33,953 bases of DNA from contig JAAYMW010000052.1 in NCBI GenBank assembly GCA_012521175.1, positions 1 to 33,953 of the forward strand, written 5' to 3'. How positions within the stretch are numbered: the stretch's first letter is position 1; every line of letters starts with the position of its first letter. Origin of the DNA: Candidatus Epulonipiscium sp. (GTDB lineage Bacteria > Bacillota > Clostridia > Lachnospirales > Defluviitaleaceae). The notes under the pieces were generated by a model. It was not told the origin of the DNA. It did not search any database and was given only the letters and a program-made list of their open reading frames with translations. The translations under genes were made by a program, and so were the position numbers. Positions 8,913 through 28,569 of the stretch are shown here, piece after piece.

Positions 8913-9174
8913 AAAAAATCCGTCCATGACAAATAAATTTTGTCAGGGACGGAAATCTCTTCCGCGGTGCCACCCTGCTTGAATAGCATTCCTCTTAGAG
9001 TTTTATAACGGTAACAAACCGTACAATCCTACTCCATTTTCAGATTGTCACTCGAGGATGTCCTTCGAATATTTTTTCTTTAAAAGCTCTCAGCCTGGGC
9101 TTTTTTTTCTGTAAAAGAAAACAAATATTCTACTCTTCCTCTCAACGCTTTAATTAATTGCTATCATACCATTC
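8913..9174 (-). promoter_or_regulatory. T-box leader of the hisS-aspS operon (antiterminator plus terminator)
   Basis: Minus-strand AGGGTGGCACCGCGG T-box core (8962-8976); Stem I S-turn-like AGTA...GAA; terminator CCGTCCCTGACAAAATTTATTTGTCATGGACGG (8920-8952) followed by TTTTTT; T-box 3' segment shared with the terminator (TTCCGTCCCT). Confidence 0.93.
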
Positions 9175-14779: not shown

Positions 14780-14814
14780 AGTCTTCTCCTTTTTCAAAAG
14801 ATTAAACTTTTCTT

Positions 14815-14859
14815 TTTATTGCATAGAAAATCCAGTGGAATTTTCTGTGCAATAAAAAA
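14815..14859. repeat. Hairpin-only copy (A) of the dispersed intergenic repeat
   Basis: TTTTATTGCATAGAAAATCCAGTGGAATTTTCTGTGCAATAAAAAA; matches the 3' hairpin of copies C and E. Confidence 0.75.
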
Positions 14860-18400: not shown

Positions 18401-19294
18401 TTACGCAGTTTTAGAAATAGATTTCTTTTGAAATTCATACCATAAGGGGCTGGCAATAAAGATTGAAGAATAAGTACCGGCAATAATCCCTACAATTAAT
18501 GGCAGTGCGAATTCTTTTATGGAAGCAACTCCAAGGAAATACAGCACTGTTATGGTAAGCAAAGTTGTTACAGAAGTATTGATTGAACGAACAATTGTCT
18601 GAGATACACTAGTATTAATTAATCCTTCTAAGTCGCCTTTTTTCGCTACCTTTTTATTTTCACGAATTCTATCAAATATTACGATGGTGTCATTGATTGA
18701 ATACCCTACAATGGTTAGAATCGCTGCGATAAATGAGTTATTTACTGGAACTCGTCCAATAGAATACACTGCTAATACAATGAGCACATCATGTATTAAT
18801 GGCAACACAGCAGCAAGACCAAATCTCCAGTCTTTAAAACGGAAAGTAATATATATAAGCATCAAAATGGAAGACACAAGTAATGCCTGCAGTGCTTTTA
18901 ACTGCATTTCCGTACTGATCGTAGGAGACACATCATCTACATTTAATAAATCATTCATTCCGTCTAAATTAAACTTTTCTTTTAGAACATCGTATAATTT
19001 TGTTCTTGTTGCAGAATCTAAAGATTTCGTCTTAATGGTTACGCCCTGTTCTCCCGAACGTGTAATCTGAGGGTTTTCTTCCCCTGTGATATCTACAACA
19101 ATGGGCTTAATATCCTTTGCGATATCAAAATCTTGTCCAATGTTAACTTCCATTACGGTTCCGCCAATAAATTCAACGTCAAAATTTAAAATCCCATTCC
19201 CCATAAATGCATTGATTGGCATGGCCAATAGTCCTGCTAAAATAAGAATAATTGAAATAGTAAACCAGGTTTTGCGTTTTTCAATAATATTCAT
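18401..19294 (-). CDS. secF: Protein translocase subunit SecF
   Basis: DVEFIGGTVMEVNIG, SINDTIVIFDRIREN, TSVTTLLTI. Confidence 0.96.
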   Translation of the reverse strand: MNIIEKRKTWFTISIILILAGLLAMPINAFMGNGILNFDVEFIGGTVMEVNIGQDFDIAKDIKPIVVDITGEENPQITRSGEQGVTIKTKSLDSATRTKLYDVLKEKFNLDGMNDLLNVDDVSPTISTEMQLKALQALLVSSILMLIYITFRFKDWRFGLAAVLPLIHDVLIVLAVYSIGRVPVNNSFIAAILTIVGYSINDTIVIFDRIRENKKVAKKGDLEGLINTSVSQTIVRSINTSVTTLLTITVLYFLGVASIKEFALPLIVGIIAGTYSSIFIASPLWYEFQKKSISKTA

Positions 19295-19308
19295 CTTCTC
19301 GGCCTCCT

Positions 19309-20535
19309 TTATTTCGCACCATATAGTTTTGGATTTTTCAGCCCGAGATTAACGAACTGTTTAAGAATAATTCTTGTTACTACCAATGCAGTGAACATTG
19401 AAACAAGAATACCGATTCCCAGAGTCTGTGCAAAGCTTTTAATAAGCCCTGTACCTATCCAGTATAATACACCGGCTGCAATTAATGTGGTTACATTTCC
19501 ATCTAAAATTGCAGAAAACGCCTTACTAAAACCTGAATCCACTGCAGCTCTTAAAGTTTTCCCTGCATTTAATTCTTCTTGAATTCTTGCAAAGATAATT
19601 ACATTGGCATCTACCGCCATACCTACAGATAAGATGATACCAGCTATACCTGGAAGAGTTAAAGTGGACTGTAATAAACTTAAAATAATTACAACCGCTC
19701 CGCAGTAGAATAATAAAGCCAAATCAGCAGCAAGACCGGGAACTCTATATACAGCAAGCATAAATAATAAAACTAAAATGATTCCTATAAAACCTGCTTT
19801 AAGGCTGGTTTCTAAAGCACTGGCACCTAATTTAGCACCAACGCTGTTACTTTGTAATGGAGTTAATTTAAAAGGAAGCGCTCCGGCTTTAATTCTTGCA
19901 GCCAGTTCATCTGCCTCTTCTATTGCGCCAACGCCTTCTATAACAGCATTTCCTTCAGTAATAACAGAATTTACTACTGGGGCACTGATAATTTGATCAT
20001 CAAGAGCAATCATTATAATTTGACCAAGATATTTTTCTGTTGCTTTTGCAAAAGCTTCTTTTCCTTTTGAATTAAATTCTAAGGCAACAACTGCTTTAGT
20101 GATTCCATTGTCGTTAACAACTTCTCTTCTTGCATCTTTTACTTCATTACCAGTTAAAATAACTTCTCCTTCAGGACTAATAAATTGAAGTTGTGCGGTT
20201 GCACCAATATCTTCTATTGCTTTATTGGGATCTTCCACTCCGGGGATATCCACACGAATCCTTCTATTTCCTTCTCTTGCTACTTCTGCTTCTGTGTAAT
20301 TACCGCGATCCAATCTTCCCTGAATCATTTCAATCGCAGCGCTCATCTCTTCATCCGTAGGATTTTCTTTATCCGCTTCATAAACAATATTTACCCCGCC
20401 TTTTAAATCCAATCCTTGCCTTATATTTTGAGCACCTAAAAAATTGTTTTCACCGATTCCAAAATAGGCTACTCCTCCTGTCAGACCAATCAGAACGACA
20501 GTTAAAAGTAATATTAATCCGCTCTTGACCTTCAT
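19309..20535 (-). CDS. secD: Protein translocase subunit SecD
   Basis: RQGLDLKGGVNIVYEAD, GMAVDANVIIFARIQEEL; start set at MKVKSGLILL after GGGAG, 6 codons inside the track ORF. Confidence 0.96.
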   Translation of the reverse strand: MKVKSGLILLLTVVLIGLTGGVAYFGIGENNFLGAQNIRQGLDLKGGVNIVYEADKENPTDEEMSAAIEMIQGRLDRGNYTEAEVAREGNRRIRVDIPGVEDPNKAIEDIGATAQLQFISPEGEVILTGNEVKDARREVVNDNGITKAVVALEFNSKGKEAFAKATEKYLGQIIMIALDDQIISAPVVNSVITEGNAVIEGVGAIEEADELAARIKAGALPFKLTPLQSNSVGAKLGASALETSLKAGFIGIILVLLFMLAVYRVPGLAADLALLFYCGAVVIILSLLQSTLTLPGIAGIILSVGMAVDANVIIFARIQEELNAGKTLRAAVDSGFSKAFSAILDGNVTTLIAAGVLYWIGTGLIKSFAQTLGIGILVSMFTALVVTRIILKQFVNLGLKNPKLYGAK

Positions 20536-20697
20536 TGTTTTTTCTCCCTTCATACAAAATACACAAAATTAATTATATGCTTTATCCTATGGTACGTCAA
20601 TATTTTTACAACTATTATATTTTATTTTGTATAATTTTTCCCTAATATGTATTTTGCTGAAAAATAATTGGTTTATCTACTTATTCTTAAAATCTAT

Positions 20698-20733: not shown

Positions 20734-22086
20734 TTATTCTGCCAATTTTGCCGTTACATATAAAGCACATTCAACCCTTTTCTTTTCTAATTCACAGCCG
20801 ATTTTATATGGTATATGAATATCTCCATGGAACTGATAAGCATTGGCTGCACATCCTCCGCTGCAGTAAAATTTTGCCCAGCAATTTTTACACTCTTCTT
20901 TAGCATACACATTACAAGCCTGGAACTGCTTTTGCATAGGCAGATTCTGGATCCCTTCAAAAACATTTCCCATTTTGAATTCTTCTAATCCTACAAATTG
21001 ATGGCAAGGATATAAATCTCCTTCCGGGGTAACAGCTAAATACTCTGAACCCGAGCCACATCCTGCAAGTCTCTTGGCAACACAAGGGCCCTGTGTAAGA
21101 TCAATCATAAAATGGAAGAAGTTGAAACCTTGTCCTTCCTTCTTACGACGCACCAGTTCTTTTGCCAATTCTTCATACTGCTCATATAACATTGGCAAAT
21201 CTTCTTCCCTAAGGGCATATGACATCTCTTTAGGCGCTACAACAGGCTCTACAGAAACCTGCTTAAAGCCTAAATCCGCCAAATGAAGTACATCCTTGGC
21301 AAAATCCAGGTTTTCCCTTGTAAAAGTGCCTCTTACATAATAGTTGGTTTGATTTCTGCTGTCTGCAATCTTTTTAAACTTTGGAACAATAATATCATAA
21401 CTTCCTTTATGATTAACAGTATAACGCATTCTATCATGAACTTCTTTTCTTCCGTCAATGCTTAAAACGACATTGTGCATATGTTCATTGATATAAGCTT
21501 GTATCTCATCATCTAACAAAACGCCGTTGGTAGTAATGGTAAAACGAAAATTCTTATTATATTTTGCTTCTATGCTTCTTGCATAATCCACAATTTCTTT
21601 TACAACCTCAAAATTCATTAGTGGTTCTCCACCAAAAAAGTCAATTTCCAGGTTGCGGCGATTTTGAGAAGCTTGAATCAGGAAATCAATGGCTTTCTTT
21701 CCTACTTCAGCACTCATCAGTGAACGATGACCTCTATATTCTCCTTCTCCCGCAAAACAATATTTGCATTTCAAATTGCAGTCATGGGCAATATGAAGGC
21801 ATAAGGCTTTAACAATAGGATTTCTTCCCTGAAATTGACTTAAATAATCCACATACATATCTTCTGTAAAAAGAAGACCCTCTTTTTCTAATGCTTCTAT
21901 TTCTTCAATGGCTTCTTCTAATTGGGATAAAGCATATTTTTCTTTGTACTTTTGTATGAGTTCGTCTTTAGGATACTTTTTATAGTCATCTACCAATTCA
22001 TAAACAATATCATCTACCACATGAACAGCTCCACTATATATGTCAAGAACCATATTGACTCCGTCCATGGAAAATTTATGTATCAT
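20734..22086 (-). CDS. scfB: SCIFF (ranthipeptide) maturase: radical SAM/SPASM thioether-forming enzyme
   Basis: CNLKCKYC radical SAM motif, FFGGEPLMNFE, SPASM Cys cluster (CKNCWAKFYCSGGCAANAYQ); N-terminal precursor-recognition-like region; adjacent SCIFF precursor. Confidence 0.95.
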   Translation of the reverse strand: MIHKFSMDGVNMVLDIYSGAVHVVDDIVYELVDDYKKYPKDELIQKYKEKYALSQLEEAIEEIEALEKEGLLFTEDMYVDYLSQFQGRNPIVKALCLHIAHDCNLKCKYCFAGEGEYRGHRSLMSAEVGKKAIDFLIQASQNRRNLEIDFFGGEPLMNFEVVKEIVDYARSIEAKYNKNFRFTITTNGVLLDDEIQAYINEHMHNVVLSIDGRKEVHDRMRYTVNHKGSYDIIVPKFKKIADSRNQTNYYVRGTFTRENLDFAKDVLHLADLGFKQVSVEPVVAPKEMSYALREEDLPMLYEQYEELAKELVRRKKEGQGFNFFHFMIDLTQGPCVAKRLAGCGSGSEYLAVTPEGDLYPCHQFVGLEEFKMGNVFEGIQNLPMQKQFQACNVYAKEECKNCWAKFYCSGGCAANAYQFHGDIHIPYKIGCELEKKRVECALYVTAKLAE

Positions 22087-22127
22087 TCTATCACTCCAAT
22101 TTCTATTTTAGTACATTTATTTTATAC

Positions 22128-22272
22128 AGCAAGAAAGAGTTTCGCTTACGAAACTCTCACGCCGAGCGCGGTCGACAAAGCCGACAAATACAATACGCGC
22201 GAGTGTGCATTTTGCCCGAAGGGCTTTTTATTATATTAGGAAATTCAGAGGAATTTCCTATATAGTAAAAAA
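22128..22272. repeat. Near-full-length copy (B) of the dispersed intergenic repeat
   Basis: AAGAAAGAGTTTCGCTTACGAAACTCTC...GCCCGAAGGGC...TAGGAAATTCAGAGGAATTTCCTATATAGTAAAAAA; aligns along its length with 25517-25648 and 28091-28234. Confidence 0.9.
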
Positions 22273-22299
22273 GCAGCGACGTAATGCCACTGCCAGGAA

Positions 22300-22440
22300 T
22301 TAATTGTTTTCGCAAGATTGATTTGCTACAGTACAAGATGTTTTACAAGCAGATTGACAAGATGTTTGGCATTCTCCACAGCCACCTTTTGCCATACTTT
22401 TCTTTAATGTAGCCGTATTTAATGTCTTAATATGTTTCAT
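22300..22440 (-). CDS. scfA: SCIFF ranthipeptide precursor (six cysteines in forty-five residues)
   Basis: MKHIKTLNTATLKKSMAKGGCGECQTSCQSACKTSCTVANQSCENN*; RBS AAGGAGAAGGAGG upstream; adjacent to maturase. Absent from the ORF track (below its length cut-off). Confidence 0.96.
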   Translation of the reverse strand: MKHIKTLNTATLKKSMAKGGCGECQTSCQSACKTSCTVANQSCENN

Positions 22441-22470
22441 ATTTATGCCTCCTTCTCCTTAATTCGACTC

Positions 22471-22476
22471 ATTATA
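22471..22476 (-). promoter_or_regulatory. Extended -10 promoter immediately upstream of scfA
   Basis: Minus strand TATGTTATAAT, 35-40 nt upstream of the scfA start; -35 poor (TTTTCA). Confidence 0.5.
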
Positions 22477-22508
22477 ACATACTTAAATTTAATTGAAAAG
22501 GGGATTGG

Positions 22509-22922
22509 TTATTTTTTCACATTAATTCCTATCATTCCTCCTAACGTTCCTCCAGCTCCCGCCATGATAAGAAGTGTTGCAGTATTACGAGTCATCATTA
22601 ATTCTTTACCTACAGTAGTGGAAACAATAATTAAAATTACAGCATAAACAAGACCTGCTATAAGTCCCCAAAGCCATCCTTTTGATGGTGCGCCTTTCGC
22701 AGTGTCATATCCTGCTACTAAAACAGAAATGATCGTAGTAACAATTGCGATAGCGGGAATACTACTTTCAGGCAAAGATGTATAGGTAAGCAGTAATGCG
22801 GAACCAATAAAAAAGATTGCAGTAATCATATAAGCAACTATATTTGCCTTTAAAAGAGTAATGATTCTCCATTCACTTACCTTGTTCATCGTTTGCACGG
22901 ACTTATGCTTGGCTTTTACCAT
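22509..22922 (-). CDS. TIGR04086-like small integral membrane protein
   Basis: 137 aa, four hydrophobic segments, glycine-rich (VAGYDTAKGAPSKGWLWGLIAG; AGAGGTLGGMIGI); family known to neighbour SCIFF loci. Confidence 0.75.
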   Translation of the reverse strand: MVKAKHKSVQTMNKVSEWRIITLLKANIVAYMITAIFFIGSALLLTYTSLPESSIPAIAIVTTIISVLVAGYDTAKGAPSKGWLWGLIAGLVYAVILIIVSTTVGKELMMTRNTATLLIMAGAGGTLGGMIGINVKK

Positions 22923-25516: not shown

Positions 25517-25648
25517 CATAAGAAAGAGTCTCTCTTGCGTAATTCTCACGTCGAGCACTGTTGGCAAAGCCTACCGCGAGTGTACATTCTGCCCGGAGGG
25601 CTCTTTATTGCATAGGAAATCCGGAAGAATTTTCTATGTAATAAAAAA
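25517..25648. repeat. Diverged near-full-length copy (C) of the dispersed intergenic repeat
   Basis: AAGAAAGAGTCTCTCTTGCGTAATTCTCACGTCGAGCACTGTTGGCAAAGC...CGCGAGTGTACATTCTGCCCGGAGGGCTCTTTATTGCATAGGAAATCCGGAAGAATTTTCTATGTAATAAAAAA; internal deletion of roughly 15 nt relative to B and D. Confidence 0.85.
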
Positions 25649-28090: not shown

Positions 28091-28234
28091 GCAACAAGAA
28101 AGAGTTTCTCTTACGAAACTCTCGCACCGAGCGCGGTCGGCAAAGACGACAAATACAATACGCACGAGTGAGGATTTTGTCCGAAGGGTTTTTTAATATA
28201 TAGGAAATTCAGAAGAATTTCCTATATTAAAAAA
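28091..28234. repeat. Near-full-length copy (D) of the dispersed intergenic repeat
   Basis: AAGAAAGAGTTTCTCTTACGAAACTCTCGCACCGAGCGCGGTCGGCAAAGACGACAAATACAATACGCACGAGTG...TCCGAAGGG...TAGGAAATTCAGAAGAATTTCCTATATTAAAAAA; closest to copy B. Confidence 0.9.
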
Positions 28235-28487: not shown

Positions 28488-28526
28488 GGCTCCATATTCT
28501 GATTGCCTCAGAGTATGGAGCCTTGT
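28488..28526 (-). terminator. Terminator downstream of the stalk-domain protein gene
   Basis: AAGGCTCCATATTCTGA/TCAGAGTATGGAGCCTT ~17-bp stem; on minus strand followed by TTTGAATATTTTTTTG. Confidence 0.8.
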
Positions 28527-28529
28527 CTT

Positions 28530-28569
28530 TTGCATAGGAAATTTTTTCGGATTTTCTATGCAATAAAAA
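28530..28569. repeat. Hairpin-only copy (E) of the dispersed intergenic repeat
   Basis: TTTGCATAGGAAATTTTTTCGGATTTTCTATGCAATAAAAA; matches the 3' hairpin of copies A and C. Confidence 0.7.

Follow-up and report, generated by a model that had tools for sequence, protein, structure and literature searches.

Few RiPP precursors are as widespread among Clostridia as the SCIFF peptides. The locus described here lies in a 33,953-nt stretch of Candidatus Epulonipiscium sp. DNA (hereafter the window) taken from a draft assembly (2.1 Mb, 220 contigs, 79% complete), and the questions that it raises are whether a 46-aa cysteine-rich reading frame is a true SCIFF precursor, which of its residues its maturase would join, and whether the product is likely to leave the cell. 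The features of the locus are collected in Table 1.

Table 1. Features of the scfAB locus and its surroundings, in window coordinates.
Feature	Position	Strand	Basis or remarks
scfA, 46-aa SCIFF precursor	22300..22440	−	ATG start; leader 1-20, Cys-rich core 21-43; TIGR03973 and PF13165 matches
scfA ribosome-binding site GGAGG, 7 nt 5′ of ATG	22448..22452	−	Sequence; kept in same genus and family
scfA promoter TTTTCA-N17-TATAAT, extended −10 (TG)	22471..22499	−	Kept in L195, L196, L198, L200, L202
scfA intrinsic terminator, GGCAGTGGC/GTCGCTGCT stem and T tract, directly 3′ of gene	22264..22294	−	Alignment and shuffles
Dispersed repeat copy (~140 nt, hairpin-rich), ~136-nt insertion between scfA terminator and scfB	about 22128..22263		Genome copies, empty sites
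Further repeat copies	28092-28234; 25520-25646
scfB, SCIFF maturase, radical SAM/SPASM thioether synthase with N-terminal precursor-binding region	20734..22086	−	TIGR03974 match; identity to CteB
scfB ribosome-binding site GGAGTG	22092..22097	−	Sequence
TIGR04086/DUF3792 membrane protein, neighbor judged outside the system	22509..22922	−	Same frequency with and without SCIFF
secF and secD, conserved neighbors, no evidence of dedicated export	18401..20553	−	SecD/SecF adjoin scfAB in 59 of 77 loci

Identity of the Precursor and Its Maturase

The first-pass annotation had proposed a SCIFF precursor gene at this position, and the same sequence was recovered from the minus strand, with cysteines at residues 21, 24, 28, 32, 36, and 43 in the CX2CX3CX3CX3CX6C spacing that it gave. 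The frame is shorter than the 60-aa default minimum of the ORF listing, which would explain why it is missing from the ORF track. The two profile models named there as a check, TIGR03973 for the precursor and TIGR03974 for the maturase, both score well above their curated cut-offs (87.4 bits against 50, E = 4e-25, and 750 bits against 425, respectively), and PF13165 also matches the scfA product (88.1 bits; cut-off 27), the two precursor profiles each matching over the full length of the ORF. The peptide has the features that define a SCIFF, with six cysteines in about 45 residues, a conserved leader and spacing, and an adjacent ScfB maturase, whose gene begins 213 nt downstream. The proposed leader is likewise borne out, residues 1–21 matching the CteA leader bound in the CteB structure (PDB 5wgg).

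Small size is the one point in favor of regarding the frame as a decayed or chance cysteine-rich ORF, but the profile scores exclude a chance match, the expression signals are conserved, and substitutions are mostly synonymous, so that this reading is practically excluded. Compared with the closest named relative (L061, a Candidatus Epulonipiscium sp. MAG with an 82% identical ScfB), scfA differs by nine synonymous and three non-synonymous codon changes, the latter all in the leader; selection on the gene, as read from these codon changes, is visible.

ScfB (450 aa) is 67% identical to CteB (PDB 5wgg, E = 2e-210). Of the 14 aligned CteB cysteines it keeps 13, including those of the radical SAM CX3CX2C motif and of the SPASM region with its auxiliary clusters. 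The only one replaced, at alignment position 228, is a serine in the window ScfB and lies outside the cluster motifs, and the N-terminal precursor-binding region is recognized by the CteB alignment only. By every test open to sequence, the pair is a SCIFF precursor with its maturase, and homology bears out the earlier description of a complete ranthipeptide precursor/maturase pair, where complete means precursor and maturase only. The donor Cys32 and the acceptor candidates Thr34 and Thr37 are present, and a ranthipeptide thioether is predicted in the window product.

Among characterized systems, the window pair resembles CteA/CteB (thermocellin) of Clostridium thermocellum (PDB 5wgg, 5why) in the identity and cluster cysteines of its maturase, in a homologous leader and in the Cys32/Thr34/Thr37 candidates. 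It differs in that a dispersed repeat separates its two genes and in that it is known from genes alone. Tte1186a/Tte1186, the SCIFF system of Caldanaerobacter subterraneus, compared here by literature only, belongs to the same peptide family and has in common with it the residues reported as donor and acceptor (PMC8326336). Freyrasin (PapA/PapB), a Paenibacillus ranthipeptide, shares the radical-SAM non-alpha thioethers, and the PapB-family model NF047865 matches the window ScfB below its cut-off (304 bits against 340); it differs in having six Cys-Asp links and another precursor (PMC8172795).

Transcription Signals and the Intergenic Repeat

The ribosome-binding site and extended −10 attributed to scfA in the first-pass annotation, GGAGG and the TG preceding the −10 hexamer, were both found and are conserved in the genus and family. 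Promoter-pattern matches in the region are not above chance (9 vs. 10.2), but the scfA promoter is nonetheless conserved in the genus and family. Downstream, the terminator is kept across nine aligned sequences (the window and eight relatives) with all stem cells paired, and 33 of 77 loci show a terminator-like site behind scfA, compared with 1.4 in mononucleotide shuffles. Covariation in the stem was not above shuffled controls in the nine-sequence alignment and was rejected as proof of the terminator, the variation that does occur being compatible with pairing. scfA has a promoter to itself and is separated from scfB by a terminator, so that on the simplest reading transcript of the precursor should be more abundant than that of the maturase, and scfB would depend on read-through or on another promoter.

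The 213-nt scfA–scfB gap of the window compares with 78 nt in two genomes with an empty site (G243 and G245), while a third (G244) carries a related repeat copy at the same junction. The presence of filled and empty junctions within one genus points to insertion of the repeat. The window's own genome has dozens of full or partial copies of the repeat, and three other genomes of the genus have about as many; in most other relatives searched it is rare or lacking. Rfam at gathering thresholds returned a T-box as its only match over the window, and the repeat matches no listed RNA family; the T-box leader (RF00230, 122.7 bits) lies at 8942-9154 on the minus strand, upstream of hisS and aspS. Two separate short palindromes, at 14813-14859 and 28523-28569, resemble the tail hairpin of the repeat and adjoin gene ends, where they may act as terminators.

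Distribution, Gene Order, and Export

In a sample of 243 Clostridia genomes, 209 had a SCIFF and 207 a ScfB over its cut-off; the 14 control genomes had no SCIFF. Among ScfB-anchored loci from named records, 77 of 80 have a SCIFF upstream of ScfB at a distance of 55–527 nt, and two of the other three end too close to ScfB to tell. Individual loci depart from this pattern in various ways. One (L069) has about 760 nt upstream of ScfB, rich in short repeats, with no readable SCIFF there. Two genomes (G182 and G232) gave a strong ScfB match and no SCIFF match in the profile search, where contig breaks or divergent precursors are possible. In another (locus L183 of G100), two SCIFF leader-core units are fused in a single 95-aa frame adjoining ScfB.

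The genes recurring beside scfAB in the 77 loci encode SecD/SecF (59), RecJ (40), TIGR04086 (36), Apt (19), and RelA (19), and more rarely a PHP-domain protein (15), YajC (9), and Tgt (9). The pair thus looks as if it were set into an old gene order of Firmicutes including B. subtilis, tgt-yajC-TIGR04086-secDF-recJ-apt-relA. As a SCIFF/ScfB ranthipeptide pair of Clostridia, the window pair is standard: class-wide, housekeeping-like and locally ordinary.

An exported quorum-sensing RiPP would be expected to come with a dedicated leader protease and/or exporter. The first-pass annotation saw neither in the window, and this holds: no such gene was recognized among the scanned window proteins, whose transport-type members are an ABC importer-type set (with a solute-binding protein), an EamA permease, and the Sec-accessory proteins SecD/SecF/YajC. 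The result is also general, given that ORF clustering of the 77 loci found no recurrent protease or ABC exporter beside scfAB. A dedicated exporter or immunity protein might be sought in the TIGR04086 membrane protein, which lies directly upstream on the same strand in the window and near scfA in nearly half of the loci (36/77). However, this protein is present in 26 of 34 SCIFF-less and 159 of 209 SCIFF-bearing Clostridia (76% each, Fisher p = 1), it is found in B. subtilis, where there was no SCIFF hit, and its position is best explained by the old gene order. We therefore regard such a role as very improbable, the phyletic test lending no support to a SCIFF-specific exporter. SecD/SecF were likewise rejected as dedicated SCIFF export, being accessory Sec proteins in the same old order.

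Which Threonine Is Crosslinked

Reports on homologues describe one thioether and place it differently. Reviews (PMC8326336, PMC8172795) give the link as Cys32-Thr37 for Tte1186 and CteB in vitro, and as Cys32-Thr34, through the gamma carbon, for CteA produced in E. coli. To these reports we can add the natural variation of the core. Across 141 SCIFF cores (a few genomes being present in two collections, and part of the sample having been gathered with the SCIFF profile and hence biased to conserved cores, a bias from which the ScfB-anchored part is free), C28-QSACKTS-C36 is invariant in 141/141 loci. Thr34 is accordingly present in every core, and position 37 is Thr in 131, Gly in nine, and Ala in one. 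Codons at the invariant positions vary freely, which indicates that the constraint acts on the peptide.

The nine loci with Gly37 (L005, L010, L020, L027, L162, L164, L165, L169, and L183) come from four genome families (f6, f37, f66, and f29). All have an adjacent ScfB over cut-off, and these ScfBs form one clade with a support of 100. The single Ala37 SCIFF (G196) is without ScfB. Since Thr34 is invariant and Thr37 is replaced by glycine in a clade that keeps ScfB, the comparison favors the Thr34 gamma carbon over Thr37 as the predicted acceptor for Cys32, at least in the Gly37 clade. The loss of Thr37 is a single evolutionary event followed by much divergence, and it weakens the case for Thr37 in that one clade without excluding it in others. 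That the crosslink is Cys32-Thr37, with Thr34 kept for another reason, agrees with the in vitro results for Tte1186 and CteB summarized in those two reviews, and with the threonine at position 37 in the window ScfA and most other cores. Gamma-carbon chemistry requires a threonine side chain, however, and glycine occupies position 37 throughout a diversifying ScfB clade, whereas Thr34 never changes; we consider this placement unlikely. The glycine alpha carbon could in principle serve as acceptor in Gly37 SCIFFs, and Thr34 could be conserved for binding rather than crosslinking.

SCIFF Genes Without ScfB

According to published expectation, ScfB accompanies every ScfA (PMC5300114). The SCIFFs of one Clostridia family (f36) depart from it. 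ScfB exceeded its cut-off in none of 36 genomes of this family (best score 148 bits against 425), and a SCIFF over cut-off with an intact core was found in seven of them, in three genera (loci L146, L147, and L220-L224; genomes G082, G196, G277, G288, G285, G276, and G287). A clear ribosome-binding site precedes six of the seven genes, and a terminator-like hairpin lies downstream of most of them. Their chromosomal sites differ, except that G276 and G277 share flanking genes, and several of the peptides are closer to SCIFFs of other families than to each other, which hints at separate transfers. In four of the seven genomes no ScfB-like radical SAM protein was found at E values up to 1e-3. Mis-binned contigs are not an easy explanation, because the ScfB that is normally adjacent is absent from the surrounding kilobases.

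Apparent ScfB losses elsewhere (G017, G153, G235, and G059) were traced to a split ScfB frame, to contig ends or to ScfB at another place, and were rejected as orphans; after this screening, only f36 remained. The f36 genes may reflect a function of the unmodified peptide, another modifying enzyme, or recent gain with ongoing loss. A ScfB-independent function of SCIFF, either as an unmodified metal-binding or redox mini-protein or after modification by a different enzyme, seems to us rather improbable.

Proposed Mechanism and Role

Taken as a whole, the findings are best explained by a standard ScfA with its ScfB maturase, in which Thr34 is the most likely acceptor and a class-wide role is probable (we put this reading at roughly 0.85). 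By homology, ScfB would bind the ScfA leader (residues 1 to about 20), and its radical SAM cluster would take a hydrogen from a threonine side chain, to which the Cys32 sulfur would be joined. With the Thr34 gamma carbon as the most likely acceptor, a short ranthipeptide ring would result, and the remaining five cysteines would be left for disulfides, metal or further chemistry.

A quorum-sensing role was proposed in the title of Chen et al. (2020), and disruption of precursor and maturase in C. beijerinckii lowered expression of sporulation genes and raised that of agr, as reported in PMC8102284. This proposal and the transcriptome effects (Chen et al., 2020, via PMC8102284; PMC11063209) speak for a mature product that is exported and acts in quorum sensing, with general machinery encoded elsewhere in the genome to cut and secrete it. 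Against it, no protease or exporter recurs beside scfAB across the 77 loci, the core shows hardly any species-specific variation, and the effects of disruption alone do not demonstrate secretion. We therefore hold export for quorum sensing to be a serious but less probable alternative. A nearly invariant core, together with the lack of a dedicated export or processing gene, fits a conserved role that is intracellular or general no less well than quorum sensing. Given how little the core varies across Clostridia, the standard pair probably has a conserved class-wide role, whether intracellular or general regulatory or in metal or redox chemistry, rather than that of a strain-specific antibiotic or private pheromone.

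The window copy itself is nothing unusual, and the interest lies in the Thr34 comparison and in the SCIFFs that lack ScfB. The Gly37 clade supplies natural variants that separate Thr34 from Thr37 as acceptor. The ScfB-less family raises the question of whether the peptide works unmodified, and it is these SCIFFs that merit follow-up.
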